DNA of 64,000 nt from NCBI GenBank assembly GCA_029213065.1, contig JARGPH010000021.1, positions 1 through 64,000 on the forward strand, in the 5' to 3' direction. The translations under genes were made by a program, and so were the position numbers. Every line of letters starts with the position of its first letter. Within the stretch, counting starts at the first letter, position 1. Below are positions 1,585-61,316 of the stretch, one piece after another. Origin of the DNA: Verrucomicrobiales bacterium. GTDB taxonomy: Bacteria > Verrucomicrobiota > Verrucomicrobiia > Verrucomicrobiales > DEV007. The notes beneath the pieces are model-generated. The model did not search any database and was not told the DNA's origin. It saw only the letters and a list, made by a program, of their open reading frames with translations.

Positions 1585-2439
1585 TCAAATTTTTCGAAAG
1601 TCGGTCTTCAGGAGTGGCAGGTCAGTGCTGATTTGCTTTCGAAGCTGAGTGGTGAGTCGACGCAGGATCAGGCTTGAGTTGGCGACGAGTCGAACCACGG
1701 CGAGTCGGGGGTGGAGCAGTGAAGCGCCTCCGTGGTAGTCTTCGCCTTCCGCCTCGGCGATTTTGGCAGCGTTGGCGACGGCTTTCGCGGTGTCGGTTTC
1801 ACTTCCCGAAATCCAGATTGCGGCATAGTAGCAAACCTCCCACCCGGGGACCGAGAGCTGCCAGTTGCCGTGAGGTGAGCCGGGCTCGAGAACGCAGCGC
1901 TCGCGAACGAGTTGTTCCCCGTCACGGTGAATTTCGAGGATGGTTTCGAGTCTGCGAAATTGCTGGTTTTCGCCATGGGCGATGCGACCCGGTGCGAGGG
2001 TGTCGAGAAAAACCATCGATGAATCAGCTTCGAGCCGGATTACGGTGTTCTGCCGGACGTCGCTGTCGCGGTGGGGAATCGTTATTTCGGGCCAGTAGTC
2101 GAGCCATGAGCCATTGCCTAGGGTGAAGCGCTGGTTCAGTTCTGCGCGTCCCCGGGGCATGGTGTGATACCGGCTCGCGCTGGGCGAGGTCAGGGCAACT
2201 TTCGCGTGGTCACCGACGTCGACCGAGAGGGTAAGCTCATCGTTGGCGAAGAGGCCCGCGGTGGGATTGACAAGCTGGAGGCTGAGAACCGGATCGTTCC
2301 AATAAGGTTTGCCGATATGACAGAGCCCCCCTGCTTTACGTCGAGTCAGGATGGTGCGCTCACGATCATCATCGTGGCGGAACTCGATGCCGACATCGCT
2401 CTGCAAACTGCCGGACGCTGCGGGAGGGGAAAGGCTCAT
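1585..2439 (-). CDS. ureD: Urease accessory protein UreD (UreH)
   Basis: This 284-residue protein is the urease chaperone that binds apo-urease and, with UreF and UreG, delivers nickel. The family pattern is visible: the NPTAGLFANDE segment (like the NPTGG...D motif of UreD), an SPSASRYHTM segment, and GRIAHGE in the middle. Length is typical for UreD. The start codon overlaps the ureG stop as ATGA at 2436-2439, which indicates translational coupling. It is the last of the urease genes, whereas in many bacteria ureD comes first. It is followed after 34 bp by a small His-rich membrane peptide. Confidence 0.93.
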   Translation of the reverse strand: MSLSPPAASGSLQSDVGIEFRHDDDRERTILTRRKAGGLCHIGKPYWNDPVLSLQLVNPTAGLFANDELTLSVDVGDHAKVALTSPSASRYHTMPRGRAELNQRFTLGNGSWLDYWPEITIPHRDSDVRQNTVIRLEADSSMVFLDTLAPGRIAHGENQQFRRLETILEIHRDGEQLVRERCVLEPGSPHGNWQLSVPGWEVCYYAAIWISGSETDTAKAVANAAKIAEAEGEDYHGGASLLHPRLAVVRLVANSSLILRRLTTQLRKQISTDLPLLKTDFRKI

Positions 2440-3092
2440 ATCGGAGCGGTGGTTTCGACATCTGTGAAAAGCACTTCGCGGTCGAACCAGGCGAACAGTT
2501 TCTCGAGAGCGATCCCGCTTTTCAGATCGGTCATGAGAAAAGTGCGGTCGCCCCGTTTGGCGCGGCAGTCTTCTTTCATCTGTTCGACGTCGGCGCCGAC
2601 ATACTGAGCGAGCTCGACCTTGTTGACGATGAGTAGGTCGGAGGTGGCAATGGCAGGGCCTCCTTTGCGGGGAATATCGTCTCCCTCGGTTACGTCGATC
2701 ACATAGATGAAAACGTCAGCAAGTTCAGGTGAGAACACGGCGGTGAGGTTGTCACCACCACTTTCGATGAGGATCAGTTCGAGCCCGTCGAAGCGCGATT
2801 GCATGACCTCAACGGCGTCGAGATTCATTGAGATGTCATCGCGAATTGCGGTGTGTGGACAGCCGCCGGTTTCGACCCCGAGGATGCGTGACTCCGGCAG
2901 CGCCGAGTGGCGAATCAGCATTTTGGCATCTTCCTGGGTATAGATGTCATTGGTGATCACGGCCATGTTGCGCGTCGTTCCGTAGCGTTCGCAAAGCTTC
3001 AAACAGAGAGTGGATTTTCCTGAGCCGACGGGGCCTCCGATACCGACGCGGATCGCTTTTCGAGAAGTGGGTGAATTCGGGGATGAGTCCAT
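2436..3092 (-). CDS. ureG: Urease accessory GTPase UreG
   Basis: UreG is the SIMIBI-class GTPase that drives nickel insertion into urease. The P-loop GPVGSGKST is at residues 20-28, the CPH nickel-binding motif is C78-P79-H80 in GGCPHTAIRDD, and an ESGGDN motif follows. I chose the ATG at 3092 (218 aa): the open frame extends to 3191, but that extension overlaps the end of ureF and looks unlike any UreG N-terminus, while 218 aa fits the family. Little His-rich extension is present at the N-terminus, so nickel storage by this protein is unlikely. It overlaps ureD by 4 bp and starts 13 bp after ureF. Confidence 0.95.
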   Translation of the reverse strand: MDSSPNSPTSRKAIRVGIGGPVGSGKSTLCLKLCERYGTTRNMAVITNDIYTQEDAKMLIRHSALPESRILGVETGGCPHTAIRDDISMNLDAVEVMQSRFDGLELILIESGGDNLTAVFSPELADVFIYVIDVTEGDDIPRKGGPAIATSDLLIVNKVELAQYVGADVEQMKEDCRAKRGDRTFLMTDLKSGIALEKLFAWFDREVLFTDVETTAPI

Positions 3093-3105
3093 AAATGGGG
3101 GAATG

Positions 3106-3822
3106 TTAGGAAAGAAACATGCGTGCGGGAGCGCGTTCGTGGCGGGAGGCGGCAATGTCCCACACAGGATTAAAGCTGCCGAGTTCGTCATCGCTTCGAT
3201 TGAGACAATCGTTCAGGTGCGGGAGGATTCCGGCGAGCGCTTCGTGGAGAAGTTTCTGGGTCGCCTGCGGGCCGACGGGGAGGAGCTTGAGTGAGGCCTG
3301 GACGAGACCGCTGTAGGTTTGGTAGGCGAGAGAAAGCAAGGCGCCGCGTACCGGGATATCCGAATACGCTGCAATCATCCCGATAACAACGGGAGCCTGA
3401 AAATGCGGAAGCGTCAGGAGTTTTTCCTCCGACCAGGTCTCGCCGTAGACCCTCAATTGCTGGCGGCCGATCGTTGAGGTGGCTTCGCGGATCTGGCGGC
3501 TCGGGCGCAGGGCCCATGAAAGCCGGTCGAGTCGGGCGAGTTCGTCTTCCCGTGCATCGAGTGCCGCGGCGTGCGCTTTGGCGACGAGAGGGAGATCAAT
3601 CTGGCGGAGACTGTGGGCGACATCGCGCATGAGGAATCGGCCGAGACTCTCTGCATCACGAACCATTCCCATTTGGACGACGCCTTCGAGACCGGCGGAA
3701 TGGGCGTAGGCGCCGACCGGGAGGGCGCTGTCAGAAAGATGGAGGAGTGGTGCGATCCAGGCGAAATCGTTGAGGGGATCCTCGATTCCATCGCTCTCCG
3801 GTTGCGGGTGGGTGGTCGCCAT
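3106..3822 (-). CDS. ureF: Urease accessory protein UreF
   Basis: UreF (238 aa) bridges UreD-urease and UreG and acts as a checkpoint for nickel loading. The family's N-terminal pattern is visible: LLHLSDSALPVGAYAHSAGLE (about residues 25-45), then the all-helical body. It starts 2 bp after the ureE stop and ends 13 bp before the ureG start, within an uninterrupted minus-strand operon. Length is usual for the family. Confidence 0.93.
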   Translation of the reverse strand: MATTHPQPESDGIEDPLNDFAWIAPLLHLSDSALPVGAYAHSAGLEGVVQMGMVRDAESLGRFLMRDVAHSLRQIDLPLVAKAHAAALDAREDELARLDRLSWALRPSRQIREATSTIGRQQLRVYGETWSEEKLLTLPHFQAPVVIGMIAAYSDIPVRGALLSLAYQTYSGLVQASLKLLPVGPQATQKLLHEALAGILPHLNDCLNRSDDELGSFNPVWDIAASRHERAPARMFLS

Positions 3823-3824
3823 GG

Positions 3825-4247
3825 TCAGTGCTGATGGCTGTGCATCTTGCAGCGGAAGATGTCGTTGCGGAAGGCGTAGGGAATGCCGATGCGCTCGAGT
3901 GAGGCGGCGAGGGTGTCGAGGCGTTCGAGGATAATCTCGTCGTCACGGACTTCAACGGGGAGGTGCTGATTACCCAGATACCAGCCGATTTTAGCTGCCA
4001 TTTCAGTGGTATCCGGCATGGGAATGACGAGGACATCCTCCGGTGTCTGTTCGATCAGAAAGACCTTCCCCGCGTTGCCGCCGTCGAGAAGCGCGCCGTG
4101 AGTGACGGTTACTTCGAGATCGACGGCGAGTTCGGTGCCATCCTCGGCGCGAGCCCGCCATCGGCGTTTGTAAAGGGTGTGACGATCCACCTGTACGGTG
4201 ATCGGTTCCGTCGCCTCCGTTGAAGTATTGCGTATCAACAGCGCCAT
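3825..4247 (-). CDS. ureE: Urease accessory protein UreE (nickel metallochaperone)
   Basis: UreE (140 aa) is the nickel-carrying metallochaperone of the urease system. The N-terminal half holds a substrate-peptide-like beta domain (RRWRARAEDGTELAVDLE). The C-terminal ferredoxin-like domain contains YLGNQHLPVEV, where the conserved nickel-site His of the family is expected. The tail ends in KMHSHQH, a short His cluster rather than the long poly-His tail of Klebsiella UreE. It starts 3 bp after the ureC stop and ends 2 bp before ureF. Confidence 0.93.
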   Translation of the reverse strand: MALLIRNTSTEATEPITVQVDRHTLYKRRWRARAEDGTELAVDLEVTVTHGALLDGGNAGKVFLIEQTPEDVLVIPMPDTTEMAAKIGWYLGNQHLPVEVRDDEIILERLDTLAASLERIGIPYAFRNDIFRCKMHSHQH

Positions 4248-4250
4248 TTT

Positions 4251-6020
4251 CTAAAACAGAAAGTAACGTTGCGCCAGTGGCACCTCGGAGAGTGGTTCAC
4301 AGGTGAGGACTTCGCCGTCGGCTTTGACAGTGTAGGTTTCCGGGTCAATTTCGATATCCGGTGTGCTGTCGTTAAACATCATTTCGGCCTTTCCAATGTT
4401 ACGGGTCGCGCTGATTGGGACGAGACGTTTTGCGACGTTGATCTCCTCGGCGAGGCCGTTGTCGAGAGCTGCCTGACTGACAAAGGTGATACTGGTGCGG
4501 GACCGGGCTTTGCCATGAGCGGCGAACTGCTTGCGGTAAAAAGTTGGCTGCGGGGTTGGGATCGAGGCGTTGGGATCCCCCATGTTGGCAAGGGCGATCA
4601 TGCCCCCTTTGAGGACCTGTTCCGGTTTGACGCCGAAAAACATCGGTTTCCAGAGAACGATATCGGCGAGTTTGCCAACCATGAGCGAGCCGATTTCACT
4701 CGCCATGCCGTGGGCGATCGCGGGGTTGATGGTGTATTTTGAAATGTAACGCAGGGCGCGAAAATTGTCGGCTGCGGCGTGTTCCCCATCGGTGGCGAGT
4801 GTTCCGAATTGCAGCTTCATTTTGTGCGCGGTCTGCCAGGTGCGACTGATCACTTCACCGACGCGGCCCATTGCCTGACTGTCGGAGGCGATCATGGAAA
4901 TGGCACCACGATCGTGAAGAATGTCCTCGGCGGCGATTGTTTGCGGCCGGATCCGTGATTCGGCAAAGGCGACGTCCTCGGGAATTTTGGAATCGAGGTG
5001 GTGGCAGACCATGAGCATATCGAGATGCTCGTCGATCGTGTTGATCGTGAATGGTCGCGTTGGATTGGTCGACGAAGGGAGCACGTTGGGGTGCGAACAG
5101 ACCTTGAGAATATCGGGGGCGTGCCCTCCGCCGGCTCCTTCGGAGTGGTAGGTGTGAATGGTGCGCCCGGCGATGGCGGCGAGAGTGTCCTCGACGTAGC
5201 CGGATTCGTTAAGAGTGTCTGTGTGAATCGCCACCTGGATATCCATTTCGTCGGCGACGGAAAGGCAGGCATCGATCGCCGCCGGGGTTGTCCCCCAATC
5301 CTCGTGTAACTTCAGTCCGATCGCACCGGCAAGGATTTGTTCGCGAAGCGGTTCAGGGGTCGCGCAGTTCCCTTTCCCGAGGAACCCGAGATTGACCGGG
5401 TATTCGTCGGCGGCCTCGAGCATGCGGTGAATGTTCCATTTACCGGGAGTGCACGTCGTGGCGTTCGTGCCCGTCGCGGGACCGGTTCCGCCACCGAGCA
5501 TCGTCGTCGTCCCGCTCGCGATCGCCTCGTCGATTTGTTGAGGACAAATAAAGTGAATGTGAGAGTCGATTCCACCGGCAGTGACGATCATGCCTTCACC
5601 GGCGATGGCTTCGGTGCCGGCTCCGATGATCATGGAATCAAAGGTGCCGGTTTCGGGATCGGCGATTTTGGAGCCGATCCCATCCTGAATACCGGGGTTG
5701 CCGGCATGGCCGATTCCGACGATGCGTCCCGCCCGGATTCCGATGTCGGCGCGAACGATCCCGATCTCGGCGTCGAGGATCAGGGCATTGGTGATGACGA
5801 CGTCGAGCGACTCGGCGTCGAGTGCGGTCGATGACTGGCCCATGCCGTCGCGTATGACTTTACCGCCGCCGAATTTGACTTCGTTGCCGTAGCCACCGGA
5901 TTCGGCGATGAAGTCGCGTTCGACTTCGATGAGGAGATTGGTGTCACCCAACCGGACCTGGTCTCCGACGGTTGGACCATAGGTTTCGGCGTATTGTTGA
6001 CGTGGGATCTTTAGTGACAT
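4251..6020 (-). CDS. ureC: Urease subunit alpha (UreC), catalytic
   Basis: UreC carries the dinuclear nickel site that hydrolyses urea to ammonia and carbamate. All active-site residues of the well-studied Klebsiella enzyme are present with a constant offset of about +20: H154 and H156 (SHIHF), K237 (the carbamylated lysine in GLKLHEDWG), H239, H266 (AIHTD), H292 ([10 protein letters not shown]), H340 (MVCHHLD) and D380 (IASDSQAMG). Length is 589 residues, slightly longer than the usual 567-570. The extra residues lie before the HxH motif, around residues 105-140. ureA, ureB and ureC are separate genes, as in most bacteria. It begins 16 bp after ureB. Confidence 0.98.
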
Positions 6021-6036
6021 GATGAAATCGATCGGT

Positions 6037-6351
6037 TCAGTCGAGAGTGCCGTTAATTTTGCCGTTCAGGCCCCAAACGGTGCGGCTTCCCGCGAGCGCG
6101 ACCAGTTCGACTTCGCGCTCTTCTCCGGGTTCGAAACGGATCGCTGTTCCCGCCGGTATATTGAGACGGAATCCGCGGGCGGCGGCGCGATCAAAAGTGA
6201 GCGAGGAGTTAACTTCAAAAAAATGAAAGTGGCTCCCGACCTGGATGGGACGGTCACCGGTGTTGGCAACAATGAGGTCGCGACATTCGAGTCCGTCATT
6301 CGCGGAGATCGGATCGGCGCCGGGCTGGGTGATGATTTCTCCGGGAATCAT
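6037..6351 (-). CDS. ureB: Urease subunit beta (UreB)
   Basis: UreB (104 aa) is a structural subunit of the urease heterotrimer. The family signature is obvious: start MIPGEI, then [11 protein letters not shown] and the [12 protein letters not shown] segment. Its start codon overlaps the ureA stop (6348-6351), as expected for coupled stoichiometric translation. Confidence 0.97.
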
Positions 6352-6650
6352 TGGATCGGTTGATGAACGGTAACCAGCTTGGTGCCGTCGGGGAAAGTTG
6401 CCTCGGCCTGGACCTCGTGGATCATTTCCGCGATACCATCCATGACGTCGTCGCGGGTGAGGATGCGGGTGCCTTCATCCATGAGTTGGGCGACTGATTT
6501 CCCGTCGCGGGCGCCTTCGAGAATTTCGTAGGTGATGATGGCGATGGCTTCGGGGTAGTTGAGCTTAAGCCCCCTTGCCTGACGCCGTCTTGCCAGATCG
6601 GCGGCGACAACAACCATCAGTTTCTCCTGTTCGCGTGGTGAGAGATGCAT
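6348..6650 (-). CDS. ureA: Urease subunit gamma (UreA)
   Basis: UreA (100 aa) is the smallest urease subunit. It begins [11 protein letters not shown] and contains [23 protein letters not shown] and the C-terminal [15 protein letters not shown] segment typical of gamma subunits. It follows urtE by 28 bp on the same strand, which puts structural urease genes directly behind the urea transporter. Confidence 0.97.
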
Positions 6651-6678: not shown

Positions 6679-7398
6679 CTAAACCGAGAGGTATTTGGCA
6701 ATGATTTCGTCGGTGAGTTCGTCAATACTGCCGTTTTCGACGACGCTGCCGCGCTCCATAATGTAAAAACGGTCTGAGACGGCCTTGGCGAAATCGAGAT
6801 ACTGTTCGACGAGGAGGATACTCATCTTGTGTTTCTCCTTGAGGTAAATAATGGCGTCTTCGATCTGGTCGATGATGGAAGGCTGGATTCCTTCGGTCGG
6901 TTCGTCGAGAAGCAGTAGAGAGGGATTCGTGAGGAGGGCGCGACCGATCGCGAGCTGCTGCTGCTGACCGCCGGAGAGAACGCCGCCCTTGCGGTTGCGC
7001 ATATCCTTGAGAACAGGAAACAGTTCAAAGACTTCGTCGAGGTGGGCGAGGCCGGCTTTTTTGTGAATTGTCAGGCTGACCTTGAGGTTCTCCCAGACGC
7101 TGAGGTTCGAGAAAATGTCGCGTCCCTGGGGAACGTAGGCGATGCCTCCGCGGGCCCGTTTTTCGGTGCTGACACTGTTGAGCGGTTCGGCATCGAAACT
7201 GATCACACCACTCGTCGCCTTGACGATTCCCATGATCGTTCTCAGCGCTGTGGTCTTTCCGACTCCGTTGCGTCCCAGTAGTGAGACGACCTGACTTTGA
7301 GGCACCTCGATATCGACGCCGCGCAGGATAAGGGACTCGTCATATCCGGCGTCGATGGATTTAAGTTGAAGTTTGGCCGTGGAGGCAGTGTCGTTCAT
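6679..7398 (-). CDS. urtE: Urea ABC transporter ATP-binding protein UrtE
   Basis: This 239-residue ATPase is the LivF-like subunit of the Urt urea importer. It has Walker A GRNGVGKTT (about 42-50), the signature LSGGQQQQLAIGRAL, Walker B LLLLDEPTEGI and the H-loop residue usually His seen here as E in LLVEQYLD, as in LivF-type proteins. The assignment to UrtE rests on its place directly after urtD and before ureA. Confidence 0.95.
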   Translation of the reverse strand: MNDTASTAKLQLKSIDAGYDESLILRGVDIEVPQSQVVSLLGRNGVGKTTALRTIMGIVKATSGVISFDAEPLNSVSTEKRARGGIAYVPQGRDIFSNLSVWENLKVSLTIHKKAGLAHLDEVFELFPVLKDMRNRKGGVLSGGQQQQLAIGRALLTNPSLLLLDEPTEGIQPSIIDQIEDAIIYLKEKHKMSILLVEQYLDFAKAVSDRFYIMERGSVVENGSIDELTDEIIAKYLSV

Positions 7399-7416: not shown

Positions 7417-8217
7417 TTAGGCCGCGTCCTCGTGCTTAGAGCGACCGAGGTAGACTTCTTTAACGACCGGGTCATTGGCGACATCCGAGAAGGTGCCCTC
7501 TTTGAGGACGTGCCCCTGATGCAGCACGGTGACTTTTTTAGCGATCTGACGGATGAACACCATATCGTGTTCGATGACCATGATGCTGTGTTTGCCACGC
7601 AGGCCGATGAGCAGTTCAGCGGTGCGTTCTGTTTCTTCGTCACTCATCCCCGCAGCAGGTTCATCAACGAGGAGGATGCGTGGCCTCTGGGCGAGCAGCA
7701 TGCCGATTTCGAGCCATTGTTTCTGGCCGTGTGAGAGGCTGCCGGCAAGTTCATGGCGACGGTCTGCGAGTCGGGTCAGCTCGAGGACCTCTTCGATCTC
7801 TTCGCGGTCCGCCGCGGTCTCCTTGTAGAAAAGGGTCTTGAGGACGCCGCGGTTGCGATTCAGTGAGAGCACGAAATTTTCATAGACGGTGTGCTGGGTG
7901 TAGACACTGGGAGTCTGAAATTTCCGGGCAATGCCGAGGCGATTGACTTCGTACTCACGCATCTTCGTGAGATCGAGATCGTGTCCGTCATCCTGGTGGT
8001 AGGTGAGAGTGCCTTCGTCGGGGCGGGTGCGCCCCGTGATCAGGTCCATGAAGGTGCTTTTGCCGGCACCGTTGGGCCCGATGATGGTGCGCAGTTCCCC
8101 TTCCCCGAGATAGAAATTGAGGTCGTTGATCGCGCGAAAGCCATCGAAGGATTTGGTGACGGACTCGACGGAGAGAACCAGGTCGGTGTCACGATAAAGC
8201 GGGGCGTGGGAATCCAT
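7417..8217 (-). CDS. urtD: Urea ABC transporter ATP-binding protein UrtD
   Basis: UrtD (266 aa) is the LivG-like ATPase of the urea importer. Walker A is GPNGAGKST, the signature is LSHGQKQWLEIGMLL (LSHGQ is typical of UrtD), Walker B is ILLVDEPAAGM, and the H-loop is VIEHD. It starts 3 bp after urtC ends. With UrtE it forms the nucleotide-binding pair for the UrtB-UrtC membrane channel. Confidence 0.95.
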   Translation of the reverse strand: MDSHAPLYRDTDLVLSVESVTKSFDGFRAINDLNFYLGEGELRTIIGPNGAGKSTFMDLITGRTRPDEGTLTYHQDDGHDLDLTKMREYEVNRLGIARKFQTPSVYTQHTVYENFVLSLNRNRGVLKTLFYKETAADREEIEEVLELTRLADRRHELAGSLSHGQKQWLEIGMLLAQRPRILLVDEPAAGMSDEETERTAELLIGLRGKHSIMVIEHDMVFIRQIAKKVTVLHQGHVLKEGTFSDVANDPVVKEVYLGRSKHEDAA

Positions 8218-8220
8218 AAT

Positions 8221-9390
8221 TCAGGAGGTGGCTTTTTCGATTTCGCCCGGAGCTTCTGTATCGTCTGTGCTTCCGGTATCTGCGGGAGAGGTTTTTGATT
8301 TCCGCCTCGCGAGGAAGGCTTTTCCCTGCGCCCAGAGGCCGACGATTCCGTTGGGCATGAAGAGAACAACAAAGACAAAGAGGAAGCCGAGGATGATCAG
8401 CCAGGTATCGGGGTAGGCTTTGGTGCTCCAGCTTTTCAGCATGTTGACGAGGACCGCGCCGATGATGGGGCCGATCTTGGTGCCGCGTCCTCCCACAGCG
8501 ACCCAGACGACGATATCGAGGCCTTTCGTCGGCCACATTTCACCGGGGTTGATGATACCTGCCTGCGGCACAAACAGAGCACCCGCCATCCCCGCGATCA
8601 TCGCGGAGAGGACGAAGATGAAAACTTTGAAGTGAGTTGTCGAATAGCCTGAAAAGCGGACGCGGTTTTCGGAGTCGCGGATCGCTTTCTGAATTTTTCC
8701 AAACTTGGTCTGGAGGAGCCAGGCGACGAGCCAGTAAACTCCAATGAGGAGGGCTCCCGAAGCGATAAAGAGTCCGCGGGCAGTTCCGTCGGATCGGATG
8801 TCCGCCCCGAAGATAAATTTAAAATCGGTGAAGCCGTTGTTGCCGCCGAAGGTGAAGTCATTGCGGAAAAAGAGGAGTGCGGCTGCGTAGGTGAGTGCCT
8901 GTGTCAGGATCGAGAAATAGACGCCTTTGATGCGCGAGCGGAAGGCGAGGACGCCGAAGATGAAAGCAACAAGCCCGGGGACGAGAAGCGCTGCCGCGAC
9001 TGCGAAGAAGGGATTGTAGAACGGTTTCCAGTGCGCCGGGAGTTCGGTGTATCCTAGGAAAACCATGAAGTCGGGGAGTGTGCTTTTATAGGCACCCAGC
9101 TCGCCGATCATGAGCATGAGATACATACCAAAGGCATAGCCGCCGAGAGCGAAGAAGAGACACTGACCGAGACAGAGGAGTCCGGTGTAACCCCAGAGGA
9201 CATTGAGGCTCATCGCAAGGACGGCGTAACAGAGATATTTTCCCCAGACGCTCAGCTGGAAGGAGGAGACGTGCAGGGCGTTACCTTCGGGAACGAAGGC
9301 GTTGAGTATTGGCAGTGCGGCAATGAGGATGAGAAGGCCGATGAACACCGCACCTTCGGCCTTGTTGTCTACTGGGAGAAGGCGATTCAT
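8221..9390 (-). CDS. urtC: Urea ABC transporter permease UrtC
   Basis: UrtC (389 aa) is the LivM-like permease. It is strongly hydrophobic, with about ten membrane segments and the branched-chain-type permease motif near residues 290-310 ([15 protein letters not shown]). The C-terminus ends in a charged tail of about 30 residues ([10 protein letters not shown]...). It lies 51 bp downstream of urtB. Confidence 0.94.
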
Positions 9391-9441: not shown

Positions 9442-11097
9442 TCAGTCATCGAGGCTGCGCGAGCGGGACGGGAACAAACCACCGGGTTTGAACTGGAGGA
9501 AAAGAATGATTGTAATGAGGACACTGATTTTGCCCATGACAGGACCGAGAATGGGCTGGAGCCACTGGTCGACCATACCGATCCCAAGCGAGGAAAGCGC
9601 AGCTCCGAAAAGGTTGCCGACTCCTCCGACAACGACGACCATGAAGCTGTCGACGATGTAGGTTTGTCCCATTGAGGGCCCGACGTTACCGATTTGGGAA
9701 ATGAAGGCCCCGGCGAGTCCGGCGAGTCCGGATCCGTAGGCGAAGGTCAGCATGTTGACCCTGCCGGAGGGCACCCCGAGACTGGAAGCCATTTGCCGGT
9801 TCTGCATTGTGGCCCGCACGTGGAGACCCCAGCTCGTGCGGTTCATCAGAAGCCAGGTAACGATGATGACGAGGAAGGCGAAAGCGACGAGGAAAATACG
9901 ACTGTAGGACATCGAAACCCCTCCGAAGCTGTAGCTCCCGGAGAGCCATTGGGGGGCGGAAACCGAGACGTTCGCGGCACCGAACTGGAGGCGGAACAAT
10001 TGCTGGAGAATCATCGATACACCCCAGGTTGCGAGGAGTGATTCGAGAGGTCGTGAATAAAGGAAACGGATCATCCCTTTCTCAAGGAGGGCTCCGGCGA
10101 GGGCGGCGGCGAGAAAGGCGCAGGGAAGTGAGAGCACGAAGTACCACTCGTAGGCGCTCGAGCCCACTCCGAAGGTGTTTACGAAGTAGTTTTGAATGAG
10201 GTAGACAGTGTAGCCGCCGATAGCGATGAATTCGCCGTGTGCCATATTGATGACGCCCATCTGGCCAAAGGTGATCGCGAGACCGTAGGCAACGAGGAGG
10301 AGAACGGACCCGAGGCTGAGTCCGCGGAACAGCGTGCCGATATGTCCAACGATCTTCTGATAGTCATCGATTTCTCGAATTGCCTTGCGGGTGGATTCGC
10401 GCAAAGCCCGTGCGCCCGGTTCGGTCGAGGTCTCGTATTCCTTCGCGACCGTTTCGAGAAAGCCTTTCGCCGGCAGCGATTTCATTTCCCCGAGGGCCTT
10501 CACTGCGGCGAGTTTTTCTGTATCGCTGCCGCTTTTCAGTTCACAAATGTAGATCGCTTCGCGGAAGGCTCTCGCTACTTTTTCATCAGTTTGTTTATCG
10601 AGTCGGGCTTTGAGTTCCGGAAGGTATTCGGGATTCTGACTTTTGCCGAGCAAGTCAGCTGCCGCGATGCGTTTCTCTAAATCCGGAGAGCTGAGGTCAA
10701 GAAGGTCGACGAGGCGTTTGAGATCTTTTCTGAGCCCCCGACCGGCGCGACTGGGCTTCAGCTCGTCGCTGGGCGTGACGGATTCGCCCGTAAGAAGATT
10801 GGTGTAGTCTTTGTTGTCCTTCATCAGCACGAGTGGGCTGTCGCTGGACGCTACTTTTTTGATGAAGATATTACCGGAACGGTAGGCTTCGTAAAAGGTG
10901 CCGATAATAGGATCACCCTCTTCGGCAAGTCCTTCCATGGCTAGTTGTTGCCGGGCGTCGTCACCATCGGCATGAACAATTTCGACGAGGAGTGCACGGG
11001 TGCCGGCTTCGTCGGCATGAGCCGTCTCTGAGATAGATGCCCCGATTGCGAAGAGCAACGCCAGGGTGAAAAGCTGACGAACGGCGGATAGGTTCAT
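9442..11097 (-). CDS. urtB: Urea ABC transporter permease UrtB with N-terminal periplasmic domain
   Basis: UrtB (551 aa) is the LivH-like permease. It begins with a signal peptide (cleavage near AHA-DEAG), then a soluble, mostly helical, HEAT-repeat-like region to about residue 240. The permease core follows, with the family segment GQMGVINMAHGEF near residues 275-290 and GGVGNLFGAALSSLG near the end. Long UrtB proteins with such an N-terminal extension are known in other phyla, so the fusion is normal for the family. A terminator and a possible sigma-54 promoter lie between it and urtA, so it may be transcribed partly on its own. Confidence 0.94.
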   Translation of the reverse strand: MNLSAVRQLFTLALLFAIGASISETAHADEAGTRALLVEIVHADGDDARQQLAMEGLAEEGDPIIGTFYEAYRSGNIFIKKVASSDSPLVLMKDNKDYTNLLTGESVTPSDELKPSRAGRGLRKDLKRLVDLLDLSSPDLEKRIAAADLLGKSQNPEYLPELKARLDKQTDEKVARAFREAIYICELKSGSDTEKLAAVKALGEMKSLPAKGFLETVAKEYETSTEPGARALRESTRKAIREIDDYQKIVGHIGTLFRGLSLGSVLLLVAYGLAITFGQMGVINMAHGEFIAIGGYTVYLIQNYFVNTFGVGSSAYEWYFVLSLPCAFLAAALAGALLEKGMIRFLYSRPLESLLATWGVSMILQQLFRLQFGAANVSVSAPQWLSGSYSFGGVSMSYSRIFLVAFAFLVIIVTWLLMNRTSWGLHVRATMQNRQMASSLGVPSGRVNMLTFAYGSGLAGLAGAFISQIGNVGPSMGQTYIVDSFMVVVVGGVGNLFGAALSSLGIGMVDQWLQPILGPVMGKISVLITIILFLQFKPGGLFPSRSRSLDD

Positions 11098-11191
11098 AGT
11101 AGTTGAAACGGAGTCGTTAGTGAGTTTTCAGACCGTTCTCGAAACTTCCGACCCTGTTGGTCATTGGCTTCTTTTTCACGGCAAAACAAAC

Positions 11192-11207
11192 GCGGGATCT
11201 ATGCCAA
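11192..11207 (-). promoter_or_regulatory. Candidate sigma-54 promoter ahead of urtB
   Basis: The minus strand reads TTGGCATAGATCCCGC, with the GG and GC doublets ten bases apart as sigma-54 requires. The -24 half is strong; the -12 half (CCGC) is weaker than the TTGC consensus. Transcription would begin near 11181, about 84 bp before the urtB start, and downstream of the urtA terminator. Confidence 0.45.
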
Positions 11208-11245
11208 GTCGGGAAGAAATGCAGTCAACCGTGACGAGATTTTAT

Positions 11246-11285
11246 AAAAAGCCCTCCTCCGCTTGCGGTGCATGCGGAGGAGGGC
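11246..11285 (-). terminator. Rho-independent terminator after urtA
   Basis: A perfect 12-bp GC-rich stem (arms 11251-11262 and 11274-11285, 11-base loop) is followed on the minus strand by TTTTTATAAAA. It lies 41 bp after the urtA stop and before urtB. It should cut most transcripts after the binding-protein gene, giving excess UrtA. Confidence 0.9.
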
Positions 11286-11326: not shown

Positions 11327-12601
11327 TTATTTGAAGGTGCCTTTGAGGAAAGGTTCTCCTTCGACGTTCTCGAATGATTCGAGAATACTGAACTGACCTG
11401 TTTCAAGGGTCTCTCCAATATAGACGTTTTTGGTCAGGTGGTGGTTTTCCTGACTGGTAACAGTGCCGGCAGGGCCATCAAAACTGACGCCTTCTTTGAG
11501 GGCCGCCATGACAGCTTCAGGATCGAATGTTCCCGCTTTTTCGACAGCAGCTTTCCAAAGGTAAACACCATTGTATGAGAGCACCATCGGTGAGCAGGTA
11601 ACGCGGTCTTCTTTGACCACTCCTGTGACATCGGTAGCCGCCAGCCATGCCTGAAAATCAGCAATGAACTTCTTGTTCTCCGGTGAGTCGATTGACATGA
11701 AGTATGTCCAGCAACCGAGGTGACCGATGAGATCTTCAGCGGGAAGTGAGCGGAATTCATCTTCAGAGATTGAGAACGAGACTACAGGGCAGTCGTCGGA
11801 AGTCATGCCGGAAGCGGCGAACTCTTTGAAGAATGGCACGTTTGCATCCCCGTTGATCGTGTTGATAACGCAGGCATCACCGGAAGCGGCGAAGGTTTTG
11901 ATTTCGGCAACGATTTGCTGGAAATCGCTGTGACCAAAAGGCGTGTAGTTGCCTGCTGAAATCACGTTGCCGTCGTCGTCCTTACGAAGGCCGCCGCCAA
12001 TGCTCTCGACCGGAATCCCTTTCGATTGAAGATACTCGAAGAGAACCAGGTTTGTGGTCTGCGGGTAAACGTAGTCCGTCCCGATGAGGTAGAATTTCTT
12101 GTAACCTTCTTCGAGAAGATAGTCGACTGCCGGGATCGCCTGCTGGTTCACTGCTTCAGCGGTGTAGAAAATGTTAGGAGACATTTCCTCACCTTCATAC
12201 TGAACAGGGTAGAATAGCAGGTTCTTGTATTTCTCGTAGACCGGAAGAACCGACTTACGGGAGACAGATGTCCAGCACCCGAAGGTTACCACTGTCTTGT
12301 CCTGTGCGACAAGCTGCTCGGCTTTTTCAGCGAAGAGAGGCCAATCGGAGGCACCGTCGACGACAACCGGTTCGATCATCTTTCCCATGACGCCGCCGGC
12401 AGCGTTGATCTCGTCAAAAGTGAAGAGAAGAACGTCGCGGAGCGAGGTCTCGGATATAGCCATGGTGCCACTCAAAGAGTGAAGCACGCCGACTTTGACG
12501 GTCTCTTCCGCTTGAACGGTGGAGACTGCCAGGCTGGCCAGAGCGAGGAGTCCCGTGAGGGAGCCCTTGAGCTTAGCTTTTATGTCTGAATGGTAATTCA
12601 T
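11327..12601 (-). CDS. urtA: Urea ABC transporter substrate-binding protein UrtA
   Basis: UrtA (424 aa) is the periplasmic urea-binding protein. A signal peptide (cleavage after STVQA) precedes the type I binding fold, beginning [17 protein letters not shown], which is characteristic of the UrtA/amide-binding group. Other family stretches visible are [16 protein letters not shown] and [15 protein letters not shown]. It sits between an outer-membrane barrel gene (45 bp upstream) and a strong terminator, consistent with high expression. Confidence 0.95.
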
Positions 12602-12646: not shown

Positions 12647-13471
12647 TTAGAATGATACTCCGACACCGAAATTGGTGACGATGAAATCAGATTCCGGGTT
12701 GTTCACTGTCACCGAGTTGTCGGTGTGGTAGTAGGTGACGCCGGCATTGAACGCCCACTCGCCGCCAAGGGCTGAGTCCATGAATGCCATAGGGACACTT
12801 GCGTTGATTCCGCCGGATGCGTAACCGAATCCGGTGTCTCCACCAACTCCGTGGAAGCCTTCAGTGGCGAAGAAAGCAACTCCTACCGGGAGGGTGATGG
12901 AAACAGGTCCAAGATCGAAGCCGTGTTCAGCTCCAACGACGACCACAGTACCGGTATCGCCACCGGAAGCTCCGGCATCAAGGCGATTGTGAACGGTGAC
13001 GCTTGGGCTGAGTGGAAGGTCGAAAGCAAAACCGAAATCAAGAATCTGCTCGGTTTGGCTGCCATAGATCCACTGCTGGTAGGTTGTTGAAACCTCGACA
13101 AAACCCATGTCGTAAGCAAGGCCTGTCCAGACGTCGACTTCCTGAAGCTGTCCGCCGATAGGGCTGACACCCTTGTCGTTGACGTCCCACCAGGTACCCA
13201 GTGTCAATGACAGATCATCGGTGATGGGGAATGAGAATTCGAGTGATGGATTGAAGCCGTAGTTGCCGGCGTTTGAACCGTCACCCCAGACATCTGCACC
13301 GTATGAGATGAAATGTGAGTAGGCGTCGAAGGAGAGTGATACGCCGATCTCTTTCTCTTCGAAAGGGGGAGGCGATTTATCAACAATAGGTCCTTTCGGA
13401 TCGTAGTCACCCGCCGTAGCCAGGGACGCACCAATGAGGAATGGCAAAAGAGGGAGAATTGTACTTTTCAT
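12647..13471 (-). CDS. Outer-membrane beta-barrel protein heading the urea cluster
   Basis: A 274-residue protein with a signal peptide (cleavage near LATA-GDYD). The rest alternates polar and hydrophobic residues in beta-strand style, is rich in Gly, Tyr and Trp, and ends in Phe (GVGVSF), the usual last residue of outer-membrane barrels. It is the first gene after the sigma-54 promoter and is 45 bp from urtA. I infer a porin for urea or related small amides, but no family motif proves this. It resembles the three barrel paralogues at 59-62 kb only in general style. Confidence 0.75.
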   Translation of the reverse strand: MKSTILPLLPFLIGASLATAGDYDPKGPIVDKSPPPFEEKEIGVSLSFDAYSHFISYGADVWGDGSNAGNYGFNPSLEFSFPITDDLSLTLGTWWDVNDKGVSPIGGQLQEVDVWTGLAYDMGFVEVSTTYQQWIYGSQTEQILDFGFAFDLPLSPSVTVHNRLDAGASGGDTGTVVVVGAEHGFDLGPVSITLPVGVAFFATEGFHGVGGDTGFGYASGGINASVPMAFMDSALGGEWAFNAGVTYYHTDNSVTVNNPESDFIVTNFGVGVSF

Positions 13472-13959
13472 TTTAACTGTGTTTTGTTTGCTATAGGGCC
13501 TTCTTCATTAGACTTTTTTCGAAGTCGGCTGGCAGTGAGGTAAAGCAGCGCACGTGCCAATTTCGGGGGAAACGTCGCTTTCACCCCCCTGTATGTGGGG
13601 GTAGCCCGTTCTGAGTGTTTTCACTGAACAGGTTAGGGCTGAAACTTTTTTTCCGATGCGGTGACTTCGACGTGACAATTCTGAAAGAATTGAGACTGAA
13701 ATCTCGACAATGGCTCCCCTGAACCCCGCATGAGACTCGTCCGGAGACGGGTCTGGAACAGCAGATGGCTGCCTCTTTGACGGGACTTCGAGAGGGGGAA
13801 GTTCCCTGTGCCGAAGAGCATCGGCAGGATCAAATTCTCTCGTCTACAAAGTCACCCCGGAGGAGTGGGTAGGCGAGGAATCAGGCAAATTCTGAAGCAG
13901 CGCGGACCGGGTATAGGAAAACCAGCGGGAAAGGGGTCAGCCCACGGCCGGCTCTATCC
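13472..13959. other. Gene-free control region between urea cluster and pepP
   Basis: No convincing gene is present in these 488 bp. Besides the sigma-54 site at 13543-13560 it holds three inverted repeats: ACCCCC-N8-GGGGGT at 13583-13602, a nine-base arm pair (8 of 9 paired, CGGA loop) at 13733-13754, and GGGACTTC/GAAGTTCCC (one bulge) at 13782-13806. These lie roughly 60, 210 and 260 bp upstream of the predicted start. They could be activator sites; none matches the classical enteric NtrC box. Confidence 0.6.
13543..13560 (-). promoter_or_regulatory. Sigma-54 (-24/-12) promoter of the urea cluster
   Basis: The minus strand reads TTGGCACGTGCGCTGCTT. It matches the sigma-54 consensus TGGCACG-N4-TTGCT with one mismatch in the -12 element, and has exactly ten bases between GG and GC. 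Transcription would start near 13533, about 62 bp ahead of the barrel gene start. A sigma-54 activator gene lies about 1.8 kb away. Confidence 0.8.
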
Positions 13960-15276
13960 CTATCCAGCCATGAGGGATTCGATCTCATCTGCTTCGATCG
14001 GAATCGAAGCCATCAGGTCGATGTTGCCGCCGGCTTTCACGATTATGTCATTTTCCAGCCGCACTCCAAATCCCTCTTCGGGGATGTAGATGCCCGGCTC
14101 GACGGTGACGCACATATTTTCCACAAACTGATTCGCGACCGGGGTGACGTCGTGAACATCGATCCCGAGACTGTGCGAGACGCCGTGCATGAAATACTTT
14201 CGGTAAACGCGCTTCTCTTCCGGCAAATCCTCGGTGGCACGTTCCTCTGCAACCTTATCAGCGTCGATTAATCCCAGCTGAATGAGTTCGTCCTCCATCA
14301 AGCGAGCGACCTCAGGATGATACTCCTTTTTCATGTCTTTTCCGGGGACGACGAGCTCGTCGATGCAGACTCGCAGGATGCGCAGAACGGCGTTGTAAAC
14401 GTCGCGTTGACGGTCCGTGAATTTCCCGCATACAGGAATCGTTCTCGTGAGATCGGCGTTGTAGTTGGCGTATTCGGCAGCGACATCCATGAGTATCAAC
14501 TGCCCCTCCTCGGTGACTTGATCATTGCTCAGGTAGTGGAGCACGTTGGCATTGTTGCCCGAAGCGATGATGGGTTCGTAGGCAAATCCACGCGATCCCT
14601 GTCCGAGAAATTCGTGCATGAACTCGGCTTCGATCTCGCATTCGTTGACGCCCGGTTTGATGAAACGGAGGACGCGTTCGAAACCGTCTTTGGTAATATC
14701 GCAGGCGGTTTGGAGCAGGTTCACTTCCTCCTCCAGCTTTTCCGCGCGGAGGCGGTGCATGATCGGCGCGAGGCGGCAGTAGTTGTGGTTCGGATAGAGC
14801 GCCTGGCAGCGTCGACGGAAACGGTCGTCGAGCGAAAAGTTAATCGGCGACCCGGAGCGCCCGTGTTCGTTGTGATTGATAAAAAAGGTGTCGGAGATTC
14901 GACTGACGCGACGCAAAAAAGGTTCGAACTCCGTGGTCCACATCACTGTTTTGATGCCGGAAATCTCAGTCGCCTCCTCTTTGGAAACTTTGTGTCCTTC
15001 CCAGATTTGAATGAGGTCCGAGGTTTCACGAACGAACAGGACTTCACGCAGCTCCGGATCGGGATGAGAGGGTGTCAGGACGAGAATTGTCTCTTCCTGA
15101 TCAATGCCGCATTGATGGAAAAGATCGGAATTCTGGATGAACCGCATTGAGCCATCCGCGCAGCGCCAGGGAATGTCGGCCGAGTTGAAAATTGCGATGC
15201 AGTCTTCGGGAAGCTTTTCGCGAAGACGATTCCGGTTGGAAATAAAGAGTTCCGAAGGAATTTTACGGTATTTCAT
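13960..15276 (-). CDS. pepP: Xaa-Pro aminopeptidase (aminopeptidase P, M24B)
   Basis: A 438-residue M24 metallopeptidase that removes an N-terminal residue preceding proline. The N-terminal AMP_N domain covers about 1-170. The catalytic pita-bread domain shows all five metal ligands: D264 and D275 (MDVAAEYANYNADLTRT), H364 (FMHGVSHSLG), E393 (VEPGIY) and E408 (RLEND). No signal peptide is seen, so it is cytosolic. It is divergent from the sigma-54 activator gene, with 102 bp between the two starts. Confidence 0.94.
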   Translation of the reverse strand: MKYRKIPSELFISNRNRLREKLPEDCIAIFNSADIPWRCADGSMRFIQNSDLFHQCGIDQEETILVLTPSHPDPELREVLFVRETSDLIQIWEGHKVSKEEATEISGIKTVMWTTEFEPFLRRVSRISDTFFINHNEHGRSGSPINFSLDDRFRRRCQALYPNHNYCRLAPIMHRLRAEKLEEEVNLLQTACDITKDGFERVLRFIKPGVNECEIEAEFMHEFLGQGSRGFAYEPIIASGNNANVLHYLSNDQVTEEGQLILMDVAAEYANYNADLTRTIPVCGKFTDRQRDVYNAVLRILRVCIDELVVPGKDMKKEYHPEVARLMEDELIQLGLIDADKVAEERATEDLPEEKRVYRKYFMHGVSHSLGIDVHDVTPVANQFVENMCVTVEPGIYIPEEGFGVRLENDIIVKAGGNIDLMASIPIEADEIESLMAG

Positions 15277-15308
15277 CGCCTAAAATCGCAGCTAAAGGGA
15301 AAGGGGTG

Positions 15309-15317
15309 TGGTATACT
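15309..15317 (+). promoter_or_regulatory. Extended -10 promoter of the sigma-54 activator gene
   Basis: TGGTATACT is an extended -10 element (TGn-TATACT). No good -35 hexamer is seen. The start of transcription would be near 15324, leaving a leader of about 55 bases. Confidence 0.4.
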
Positions 15318-15378
15318 CCCGCGATCACGTTCGGAGGATTGCAGGAACAGTTTCCGATCAGATCAGTTTCAACCTTTT

Positions 15379-16773
15379 ATGGAAGATATCCAGAAACAAA
15401 CCGTCATCATCGTGGATAATGATCCCGATTTTTTAGAGTGGGCGTCGAAGCACCTTGAAGCTGAGACGGTTAAGGTGATTTGTACTTCCAGTTCAGACGA
15501 TGCTTTCACTCTTTTTGGCAAGCACAAGGCTGATTTGCTGATCGCCGAATTCAACAATATGCCGCTCGATGGAGTTGGTTTGCTGAAGAAAGTTCGCCTC
15601 GCTGAGCCCAACGCCATGGTGATTCTGAATGGTCATGTCACCTCGACGAATGTGGTCATCGAGTCGATGCGTCTCGGGGCTTTTGATGTTTTAAGACGGG
15701 AATCGGTGAACTTTGAGCTGAGGCAGGTAGCGGAGCGCGCCCTCCAGTCGGCTGATCAAATGCGGATTGCCGAGGCCGGGAGTGAAGCTGAGGGCAATGT
15801 TCAGCCTCAGCCCTCAGATGATCTCATTATCGGCCGGTCGCCGGCGATGCAGGATGTTTACAAGCTTATCGGCCGGGTCGCTCGGGCCGATGCTCCAGTT
15901 CTGATCACCGGCGAGAGCGGTGTCGGTAAGGAAGTGGTTTCCAATGCGATCCATAAGTTCTCAAGGCGGGCCAAGGAAGAGTATGTCGCGATCAACTGCG
16001 CGGCGATTCCCGGGAATTTGCTTGAGAGTGAGCTTTTCGGTCATGAAAAGGGAGCCTTTACCGGTGCAGTGAGTCGACGCATGGGCCGTTTCGAACAGTG
16101 CGACGGCGGAACTCTTTTCCTTGATGAGATTGGTGACATGCCGCTCGAAGTTCAGAGCAAGCTTTTGCGGGTTCTTCAGAGTGGTGAGTTTTCACGAGTC
16201 GGAGGAAATGAGAATTTGCTCAGCGATGTGCGAATTCTCGCGGCGACGAACAAGCGCCTCGAAGAGGAAGTGGAACACGGAACTTTTCGTGAAGATTTAT
16301 TTTACCGTCTCAATGTCGTCCGGATTCATATTCCGCCGCTTCGCCAGCGGGTCGAAGATATCAGATTGCTCGCCGAGCACTTTCTCAGTCGTCAGTCGCA
16401 GAAGGGGAAAGTTCGTTCGATGCAGTTTTCGAAAACGGCAGTCGCGGCTCTCGAAGAGTATCACTGGCCCGGCAATGTTCGTGAACTGGAGAACCTGATT
16501 CAACGTGCCTGCGTCCTTGCGACAGGCAATGTGTTGCTGCCCGAAGATCTGCCGATGGATCACGCAGCGAAAAAAGACGAATCCGAAGAGAAGGTTTCCA
16601 AGATCGCCCGAGCCATTTTCGATATTGCCAACGAGATCGGAAGTTCGCCGGTGGATTTGATTATGGCGGAACTGGTTTTTGCTGCTCTTGAAGAAAGCGG
16701 AGGTGACGAAGCGAAAGCAGCTAAATCGCTGGGTATTACAGCGGCCAGGTTAAAGCCGTATTTACCGGCTTGA
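15379..16773 (+). CDS. Sigma-54-dependent transcriptional activator with atypical receiver domain (NtrC family)
   Basis: A 464-residue NtrC-type protein. The receiver domain (about 8-120) has lost key residues: the expected phospho-acceptor Asp aligns with E57 (LIAEFNN), the conserved Thr with N84 (ILNGH), and the Lys with R106/R107 (VLRRES). The AAA+ domain (about 148-385) is intact: Walker A GESGVGKE (178-185), the sigma-54 contact loop GAFTGA (225-230) and Walker B LFLDE (246-250). A Fis-type helix-turn-helix ends the protein (GGDEAKAAKSLGITAARLK). No histidine kinase is nearby. The divergent position near the sigma-54 promoter of the urea cluster makes that cluster a likely target, but this is inference. 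Confidence 0.92.
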   Translation: MEDIQKQTVIIVDNDPDFLEWASKHLEAETVKVICTSSSDDAFTLFGKHKADLLIAEFNNMPLDGVGLLKKVRLAEPNAMVILNGHVTSTNVVIESMRLGAFDVLRRESVNFELRQVAERALQSADQMRIAEAGSEAEGNVQPQPSDDLIIGRSPAMQDVYKLIGRVARADAPVLITGESGVGKEVVSNAIHKFSRRAKEEYVAINCAAIPGNLLESELFGHEKGAFTGAVSRRMGRFEQCDGGTLFLDEIGDMPLEVQSKLLRVLQSGEFSRVGGNENLLSDVRILAATNKRLEEEVEHGTFREDLFYRLNVVRIHIPPLRQRVEDIRLLAEHFLSRQSQKGKVRSMQFSKTAVAALEEYHWPGNVRELENLIQRACVLATGNVLLPEDLPMDHAAKKDESEEKVSKIARAIFDIANEIGSSPVDLIMAELVFAALEESGGDEAKAAKSLGITAARLKPYLPA

Positions 16774-24674: not shown

Positions 24675-26150
24675 TTAAAAATCGATCGCGAAGCCACCCC
24701 GGCTTGTCACTGCTCTCGCGATGTCGACGTGGACCCAGCGAATCTCGTAACGCGGTCCCCAGGAATCGCTCACCGCGACTTCGTTGGTCGCTTCATTGTA
24801 GCCAATCACCATGCAGATGTGGAAGTTGTCTCTAACGCCCTCCAGGGTGGGAACGTATTTGGCGGCCTCTTCGTTGATCTCGGTGGCCCACTTGGCGAAA
24901 TCAGTGACGCTCTCGCGGGCCTCGGAACGCTCATTGGCGATATCGTTGTATTGCTTGAGGCTGCACATCTGCCAGAGAACAGGGACGCCTTCGTCGATGA
25001 ACTTTTTGAGGTTCTTGATCTCGAAATCTTCATGGAGCTCAAGTTCTTTGATGCGTCTCGCCTTGCTCCGCACAATGCGTTTGCAGTCTTCGGAAAGCTT
25101 CGTGGTATTCGTTCCCCCTTCCGCTGAGGTCGCTGCGGTGGCGAGTAGATACATATCGGCAGGAACATTCATGTAGCGCATCGCCCGCTCAAAGGTCGCG
25201 GGAGCACAGTAGCCTTTCGGTCCCTGATCGACCATGGGGATGTTGTCGACCCAGACATCACCGTTCTCTTCTTTGACGACATTTTTGATCTGCATTTTGC
25301 GAAAGTCCGAGTCGACGATGAAGTCGACTTTCCCTTCAAGATCTGCGTTCTCAGTCGAGACGATGAGAAGCGTGGTATACTCGTCCTCGGTGGTTGAGAG
25401 GAGGAAGGCGTGGTCATTGAAATCCCAGCGCTTCACTTTCCGCTTGTCCTCTTTCTCACCGTAATACTGTTCGACCGGTTCTCCGAGACCGGCGACGAGC
25501 TTTTCGGTAATCATCGCCGCGTCGAACTCGATTGCCTCGTTGAGATCCCCGGGAGGTTTTTTGTCGGGAAAGGCGATTTTAAAATGATCTTCGCCCATGC
25601 CGAGGCGACTTCCGAAATCCCCTTTGTTCGCGTAAACCAGCGATATGCGCTTGGCGAGGTTGCCCTCCCCTCCGTAGAGAGTCACGCAGTAGGGGTGGGC
25701 ACCGAGAAAGAGGTAATCCAGTTTTGTGTAGAGTCGGTAGCTGCTCGTGTTTTTCTTGCGGCTTTCCAGTTTCCAGTCGAGACGTTCGGCGATGGCACCG
25801 GCGTCCTCTCTCCAGAGGGAAGCGACTTCACCGAAGAGATTGTGCCCGATCACTTCGTTCATCCTGTTTACTTCCGCGAGATTGGATGAGGCAGGCTTGT
25901 TGGCTGCGGCAAGCTGCTTTTTGACTGCCTCGACACTCTCGGGGGTCAGTTGATTCACGGGAATGGAAAATTCCTTTCCGTTGCTCATTTCGAAAGTAAG
26001 CACCCCGCCCTCGACGTTTTTCACGGTGGCCTCCAGTGATTTCCCTGTTTTTGCCTGAGTGATGGTCACCGTCTCTGCGTGCAAAGGCAGTGCCAGGAGA
26101 TTGAGTGCCGCAGCAAACAGAGTGAGTTGAGGGAAAATCCGCTTTATCAT
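24675..26150 (-). CDS. Exported protein with SHD1-like N-terminus and papain-like (C39-like) C-terminal domain
   Basis: A 491-residue protein with a signal peptide (cleavage near LPLHA-ETV). Residues about 25-75 (AKTGKSLEATVKNVEGG...) resemble the SLA1-homology SHD1-like repeats common in this phylum. The C-terminal domain looks like a papain-fold peptidase: a nucleophile Cys at about 315 (GPKGYCAP), a His near 444 (FHICMV) and an Asp near 458 (VSDSWG). Such proteins may process or bind peptides in the periplasm. Function is uncertain. Confidence 0.7.
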   Translation of the reverse strand: MIKRIFPQLTLFAAALNLLALPLHAETVTITQAKTGKSLEATVKNVEGGVLTFEMSNGKEFSIPVNQLTPESVEAVKKQLAAANKPASSNLAEVNRMNEVIGHNLFGEVASLWREDAGAIAERLDWKLESRKKNTSSYRLYTKLDYLFLGAHPYCVTLYGGEGNLAKRISLVYANKGDFGSRLGMGEDHFKIAFPDKKPPGDLNEAIEFDAAMITEKLVAGLGEPVEQYYGEKEDKRKVKRWDFNDHAFLLSTTEDEYTTLLIVSTENADLEGKVDFIVDSDFRKMQIKNVVKEENGDVWVDNIPMVDQGPKGYCAPATFERAMRYMNVPADMYLLATAATSAEGGTNTTKLSEDCKRIVRSKARRIKELELHEDFEIKNLKKFIDEGVPVLWQMCSLKQYNDIANERSEARESVTDFAKWATEINEEAAKYVPTLEGVRDNFHICMVIGYNEATNEVAVSDSWGPRYEIRWVHVDIARAVTSRGGFAIDF

Positions 26151-59442: not shown

Positions 59443-60213
59443 TTAGAAAGAAACAGCGAGGCTTACCCCTGCGTGAAGAACGTCTGCACGAGTGTTTGCT
59501 CCGTCAACGAGATCCTGTGCAGCCCAACCTGTCGGGTCACCGTTGTATCCAACATAGGGAGTGAGTGTCGCGCGGCAGTTCAACTCGATTGGGAGTGAAG
59601 CGGTGGCGTAGTAGTGGTTCCAGTTGGAAAGATTGTTTTGGCTGTAGCCGTCACTCCATCCGATTCCAACGCCGAGAACAAGGCTCATTGAGTCCGTGAG
59701 GCCGAAGGATTTTTCGATTCCAGCCTGGTGATACCACGCATCGAGTGAGTAGTTGTAGTTTGTCTCCAAGGCGAGGTCGACGAATCCGAGGCTGCGAGTG
59801 AGATCGAGTCCAATTTCCCCCTGGCTGCCTGCGCCTGTTTCAGGGAAGAAGTAGTGGGTGTATCCAAGAGCAACGTCAAAACCACCGAAGGTTCCGAGTG
59901 CAGCGCTGGCGTAGAGGTCAAGCTCATCACCTGGATCAGGAGTGGTGTTTGTGTTGTTGATGTACCATGCGCCGATGGTGATTGGAACGATGCTGTCGAA
60001 GGTGTAATTCACATCAGTCCAGACGGAGTCCCGTCCGAGTCGTGAACCGTAGAAGAGGTAGTCGGACATGTAACCCGCGGAAATCTCTCCGCCGATATCG
60101 TAGCATTCTTCGATAGGCGCCTTGGCGTGCGCTACTGGAGCTTTGCCCCAATCTCCTGCATGAACGCTGAACGTCATTGCACCGATAATCGCAACTAGGA
60201 TTGCTTTTTTCAT
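59443..60213 (-). CDS. Outer-membrane beta-barrel protein, tandem copy 1
   Basis: A 256-residue protein with a signal peptide (MKKAILVAIIGAMT..., cleavage near VHA-GDWG). The mature sequence alternates in beta-strand style, is rich in aromatic and Gly residues, and ends VSLAVSF, the usual outer-membrane insertion signal. A conserved start of the mature protein (KAPIEECYDIGGEIS) is shared with copies 2 and 3. It may be a porin. Relation to the TorF-like family is possible but weak. Confidence 0.8.
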   Translation of the reverse strand: MKKAILVAIIGAMTFSVHAGDWGKAPVAHAKAPIEECYDIGGEISAGYMSDYLFYGSRLGRDSVWTDVNYTFDSIVPITIGAWYINNTNTTPDPGDELDLYASAALGTFGGFDVALGYTHYFFPETGAGSQGEIGLDLTRSLGFVDLALETNYNYSLDAWYHQAGIEKSFGLTDSMSLVLGVGIGWSDGYSQNNLSNWNHYYATASLPIELNCRATLTPYVGYNGDPTGWAAQDLVDGANTRADVLHAGVSLAVSF

Positions 60214-60390
60214 AGTGATCTAATTTACCTGATTTGAGTGGTGGTCCTACTGACCGGGATTGAGGAGAGTCCTCAGCGCGTTTTAATCGCACAGTAGTTT
60301 AACACATCTTAAATTTATGTAAATTATAATTAATTGTTATTTTCACGAGGATCTCCTGTTTTTCAACTGGGGGAGCAAAATGGGCAAAAG

Positions 60391-60420
60391 AAAAGGCCCT
60401 CCCCGTTAAGGGAGGGCCTT
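60391..60420. terminator. Terminator of barrel copy 2
   Basis: AAGGCCCTCCC (60393-60403) pairs with GGGAGGGCCTT (60410-60420), loop CGTTAA, with A's before and T's after. The downstream tail (ACACCAAGGTTCTAAGTAAG...) is shared with the other copies. Confidence 0.9.
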
Positions 60421-60484
60421 CTACACCAAGGTTCTAAGTAAGACTAGAAACTTTAAAAGTGTTTTTTAATACGGATCTTTCAGA

Positions 60485-61225: not shown

Positions 61226-61298
61226 AATAGTTTTTGTTCCCTTGGTTTGAGATGTGGTCGTAGTGACCTGTTTGAGAGTTTTCTCTCAGCAGTGGCTT

Positions 61299-61316
61299 AA
61301 GCAGGTTGGATGCCAA
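61299..61316 (-). promoter_or_regulatory. Sigma-54 (-24/-12)-like promoter of barrel copy 2
   Basis: The minus strand reads TTGGCATCCAACCTGCTT, with GG and GC ten bases apart. The -12 part (CTGCTT) is the same as in the urea-cluster promoter. Transcription would start near 61290, about 65 bp ahead of copy 2. Confidence 0.6.

Follow-up and report, generated by a model that had tools for sequence, protein, structure and literature searches.

The window, by which we mean the whole 64,000-nt stretch of DNA analyzed here, contains a cluster of 13 genes on the minus strand, in the order barrel, urtA, urtB, urtC, urtD, urtE, ureA, ureB, ureC, ureE, ureF, ureG, and ureD. All thirteen genes were identified, in agreement with a preliminary description of the same DNA, and together they form a complete set of UrtABCDE, urease subunits, and accessory proteins. 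See Table 1 for the coordinates and supporting matches of all features. The genes are separated by gaps of 51 nt or less, except for 229 nt between urtA and urtB. Because the ureG frame overlaps ureF by 86 nt, its true start is probably further in than 3191. Ahead of its permease domain, UrtB has about 250 additional N-terminal residues. On the opposite strand, window positions 5525–5856 (+) match the Rfam family RF02514 (5' ureB antisense sRNA) at 100 bits, antisense to ureC; this match probably reflects conserved urease coding sequence and not an RNA gene.

Table 1. Genes and predicted regulatory features of the window discussed in the text
Feature	Position	Strand	Remarks
EBP1, sigma-54 activator	15379..16773	+	Atypical receiver, weak HTH; not urea-linked
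Sigma-54 (RpoN) promoter, predicted	13543..13560	-	TTGGCACGTGCGCTGCTT; best matrix score of the window and conserved in relatives
Outer-membrane beta-barrel protein, first cluster gene	12647..13471	-	274 aa, signal peptide
urtA, urea-binding periplasmic protein	11327..12601	-	TIGR03407, 490.3 bits (cut-off 492.75)
Intrinsic terminator, predicted, urtA-urtB gap	11242..11285	-	12-bp stem GCCCTCCTCCGC/GCGGAGGAGGGC, then TTTTTATAA; -31.5 kcal/mol
Weak sigma-54-like site	11190..11207	-	TTGGCATAGATCCCGCGT; 8.1 bits; 92 nt before urtB, after the terminator
urtB	9442..11097	-	TIGR03409, over cut-off
urtC	8221..9390	-	TIGR03408, over cut-off
urtD	7417..8217	-	TIGR03411, over cut-off
urtE	6679..7398	-	TIGR03410, over cut-off
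ureA (urease gamma)	6348..6650	-	PF00547
ureB (urease beta)	6037..6351	-	PF00699
ureC (urease alpha)	4251..6020	-	TIGR01792, over cut-off
ureE	3825..4247	-	UreE models, under cut-off
ureF	3106..3822	-	PF01730
ureG	2436..3191	-	PF02492
ureD, last cluster gene	1585..2439	-	PF01774
Second strong sigma-54 site	61299..61316	-	19.9 bits; before TorF-like barrel gene 60485-61225

The barrel protein matches no Pfam or NCBIfam family, and a plasmid search for it returned no match. A structural model built from five sequences predicts 12 strands at a pLDDT of 70. The Foldseek matches of this model are outer-membrane barrels, including KdgM, NanC, VhGalP, PcoB, and OmpG, at about 10% sequence identity, TM-scores of 0.4–0.5, and modest model confidence. 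The predicted strand number is also that of the 12-stranded KdgM/NanC-type porins, to which the model gives weak fold matches. In the class Verrucomicrobiia, urtA directly follows the barrel gene in 29 of 30 loci, and because of this fixed place we suggest that urea may pass through the barrel.

Upstream of the barrel gene, the minus strand carries TTGGCACGTGCGCTGCTT, which has GG-N10-GC spacing and a single mismatch to TGGCACN5TTGCW, just as had been described. The -24 GG falls at 13557–13558 and the -12 GC at 13545–13546, and transcription of the barrel gene would be expected to start near 13533. The site is separated from the ATG at 13471 by 71 nt of non-coding DNA and not by 62 bp, as given previously. 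Counting consensus matches is uninformative in this window, as 25 matches with two or fewer mismatches were found against 22.3 expected, which is chance level. Therefore, we scanned both strands of the whole window with a weight matrix from a different gene, trained only on P-II (glnB/glnK) promoters in 29 further genomes of the genus. The site scored 20.1 bits out of a maximum of 22.3 and ranked first (shuffle p = 0.002). The second rank went to the site before a TorF-like barrel gene listed in Table 1, and the third reached 11.8 bits. The only perfect consensus match of the window, at 26080–26095 (-), was rejected as a promoter; it lies where a C39-peptidase-like gene encodes its signal peptide, scores 10.4 bits, and is probably due to chance. 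No sigma-70-type match was found upstream of the barrel gene. We also looked there for an activator-binding site, and none of the palindromes (e.g., CAATTCTTTCAGAATTG) was found in common with relatives or with amtB.

Independent support for the site comes from relatives, the named ones being metagenome assemblies of Verrucomicrobia/Akkermansiaceae. At 14 loci with the same barrel gene, including that of the window, the best matrix match within 150 nt upstream is a GG-N10-GC site about 45–105 nt from the start codon, with shuffle p values of 0.022 or less at 13 loci and 0.052 at the remaining one (L028). A search of 384 genomes across the class, 47 of them with the barrel, added 22 distinct loci to these 14 order-level ones. 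As GG-N10-GC alone is frequent by chance, we rely on matrix scores: 30 of the 36 distinct loci reach at least 8 bits, versus 2 of 36 on the reverse (antisense) strand. The six exceptions comprise two loci without a site (L142 and L148) and four with weak ones (L028, L140, L141, and L144). In other families of the class, ATGA...TCAT-type palindromes occur about 65–80 nt above the sigma-54 site at barrel loci L029, L134, L139–L141, and L145; they may be an activator site and were not seen in the genome of the window. Judged by sequence, the site at 13543–13560 (-) is real, and it is almost certainly a promoter, as had been proposed.

The genome encodes a single intact rpoN (PF04552, 205 bits; box ARRTVAKYR), which answers the question of whether RpoN is present that the preliminary description had raised. 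A strict pattern scan of the 5.9 Mb genome gave 24 matches versus 32 in a reversed control, so most strict matches are due to chance. The non-coding matches before a same-strand start, however few, precede amtB, glutamine synthetase II, P-II, the barrel of the window, a TorF-like barrel, and a PRC-barrel protein; a seventh match (L046) overlaps a possible start. In relatives, a sigma-54 site was found at 28 of 30 amtB loci, and P-II promoters carry one in 30 of 30 genomes. By its predicted sites, this gene set is what a sigma-54 nitrogen regulon ordinarily contains. Nitrogen-type control, suggested earlier from the urea genes, is therefore well supported by the same motif before amtB, glutamine synthetase II, and P-II, and the barrel-urtA promoter would be expected to respond to nitrogen. 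A CCCC-N8-GGGG element hinted at by a few amtB promoters was discarded, as its counts, 2 in 28 and 3 in 36 loci, barely exceed those from shuffled sequence.

Counted over this genome and its relatives, 14 of 40 TorF-like gene copies have a similar sigma-54 site in front. In the window, three TorF-like (Gcw_chp) barrel genes lie in tandem at 59443–62527 (-). Their N-termini are nearly identical, and of the three, the middle gene alone is preceded by a sigma-54 site. Relatives carry several copies of these barrels, often with one near P-II.

We then considered which activator might act at the urea promoter, and six true sigma-54 activators were found in the genome. EBP1, about 1.8 kb away, had been taken as evidence of control, which the comparison across genomes does not bear out. 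EBP1 adjoins pepP in 29 of 30 fetched loci, mostly in genomes without urt. Every other urt genome in the comparison has EBP1 on a separate contig from urt or about 1.9–3.0 Mb away from it on the same contig. In most EBP1 orthologs, Glu replaces the Asp normally present in the receiver, and EBP1 itself gives a weak HTH match. We therefore ruled out EBP1 as the cognate activator on both synteny and domains. Within the window, pepP and EBP1 (13960–16773) form a divergent pair that is conserved across the genus.

At 29 of 30 loci, EBP2 and P-II are divergently arranged, and the palindrome TGGTAAN5TTACCA occurs at P-II promoters in 30 of 30 loci with zero to two mismatches. This palindrome is the probable EBP2 binding site, as judged from sequence. 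It is absent at urt and amtB promoters, and EBP2 was accordingly rejected as the urea activator. On contig C30 of genome G000 (70855–72817; L067, 6855–8817), the P-II gene and a divergent sigma-54 activator are found with a palindrome upstream of the P-II promoter; the receiver Asp of the activator divergent from P-II is variable. The receiver and HTH of EBP3 are both intact; EBP3 lies downstream of a PAS-HisKA-HATPase kinase, with which it forms an NtrBC-like pair (L188, 2284–4905). The best NCBIfam scores of this pair are to AtoS/AtoC, and it falls below the NtrC cut-off. Presence or absence could not be used to choose between EBP1 and EBP3, as both are near universal in barrel-bearing genomes (25 of 28 and 26 of 28, respectively). 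Our best guess for the activator of the urt promoter is the kinase-EBP3 pair, which we put forward as a candidate only.

How far the promoter reaches depends on the gap behind urtA, which holds a GC-rich hairpin followed by a T tract. Such a hairpin-plus-T terminator was found behind urtA at 18 of 32 loci (16 of 29 distinct), versus 1.0 expected from shuffles. Because this predicted terminator is strong and conserved, the promoter would mainly serve barrel-urtA, the unit that it most surely serves. The genes from urtB to ureD would therefore need read-through, the weak sigma-54-like site, or another promoter. Counterparts of the weak site were seen before urtB in two relatives, L017 (14.0 bits) and L004 (6.3 bits), and none was found there in the other relatives read. 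The earlier proposal that the whole urea pathway is under this site thus stands in part: nitrogen control of barrel and urtA is supported, and the conserved terminator weakens its extension to all 13 genes.

We consider it very probable that 13543–13560 (-) is a functional, nitrogen-activated sigma-54 promoter for the barrel gene and urtA, with the terminator limiting expression from urtB onwards. RNA polymerase with RpoN would bind the site, and an ATP-driven activator responding to nitrogen shortage would contact it and allow the barrel gene and urtA to be transcribed. Many transcripts would end at the terminator behind urtA, and the outcome would be more outer-membrane channel and binding protein than membrane and enzyme parts. 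The urtBCDE and urease genes would be expressed through read-through, from the weaker sigma-54-like site before urtB, or from another promoter. The sequence evidence covers the site, its conservation, the terminator, the intact RpoN, and the sister sites at nitrogen genes; promoter activity, the response to nitrogen, product stoichiometry, and the passage of urea through the barrel are what we infer.

A narrower reading, in which the promoter serves barrel and urtA only and the genes from urtB onwards have a promoter of their own that is not nitrogen-controlled via this site, seems to us rather unlikely. The conserved terminator of -31.5 kcal/mol would fit it, as would the 229-nt gap with a GG-N10-GC site before urtB. 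However, that site scores a weak 8.1 bits and is missing from most relatives read, and terminators within transporter operons are often only partly effective. The opposite reading, in which all 13 genes form a single operon driven from this site under EBP1, draws on the tight gene spacing elsewhere in the cluster and on the intact AAA+ domain of EBP1, with its GAFTGA motif, in an activator found in nearly all barrel-bearing genomes. We regard it as improbable, given the attachment of EBP1 to pepP, its distance from urt in other genomes, its atypical receiver and weak HTH, and the conserved terminator after urtA. Finally, the site could be a chance resemblance, with the cluster transcribed from an unrecognized sigma-70-type promoter, and this would agree with the chance-level number of consensus matches across the window. 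The top matrix score, the class-wide conservation, the sister sites at nitrogen genes, and the lack of a sigma-70-type match upstream of the barrel make it extremely improbable.

The nitrogen-activated promoter of the preferred reading has a close parallel in Bradyrhizobium sp. DOA9, in which sigma-54 sites are predicted before urtA-B-C (TGGCATGGTTCTTGC, -77), glnII (-93), amtB, and glnB, and rpoN mutants show lower ure and urt expression (PMC13207237). The set of genes with sigma-54 sites is nearly identical in the verrucomicrobial genome. However, the verrucomicrobial cluster starts with an outer-membrane barrel, and a terminator splits barrel-urtA from the rest. In the verrucomicrobial cluster, use of the promoter is predicted. 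In the passages found of a broader survey (PMC12316311), sigma-54 promoters are predicted ahead of urease and P-II genes, the urease link is mainly with alpha- and betaproteobacteria, and the genes noted for Verrucomicrobiota are other than urease. An FmdC-type outer-membrane porin for short-chain amides/urea is cited for comammox Nitrospira in PMC11064514; the predicted barrel of the window is likewise a putative outer-membrane channel linked with urea uptake, and it matches no Pfam or NCBIfam family. Our literature search found no paper joining urea, sigma-54, RpoN, urease, and urtA. The Verrucomicrobiia case is a known kind of sigma-54 nitrogen control in a new bacterial group and not a new mechanism, and the barrel-urtA unit is the particular feature of its regulon.

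These results correct a tempting assumption, namely that the activator encoded closest by must be the cognate one, and they indicate where the reach of the promoter probably ends. They also provide a sequence-level nitrogen regulon for a widespread, poorly studied class, consisting of a promoter motif, the genes belonging to the regulon, and a pore and binding protein kept together as a conserved unit. More tentatively, it is possible that dedicated outer-membrane channels, namely the urea-linked barrel and a TorF-like barrel near P-II, belong to one sigma-54 nitrogen regulon across Verrucomicrobiia, with barrel and UrtA as a terminator-gated two-gene unit. If so, the cell would make its outer membrane more permeable to urea and other nitrogen sources when the need arises.
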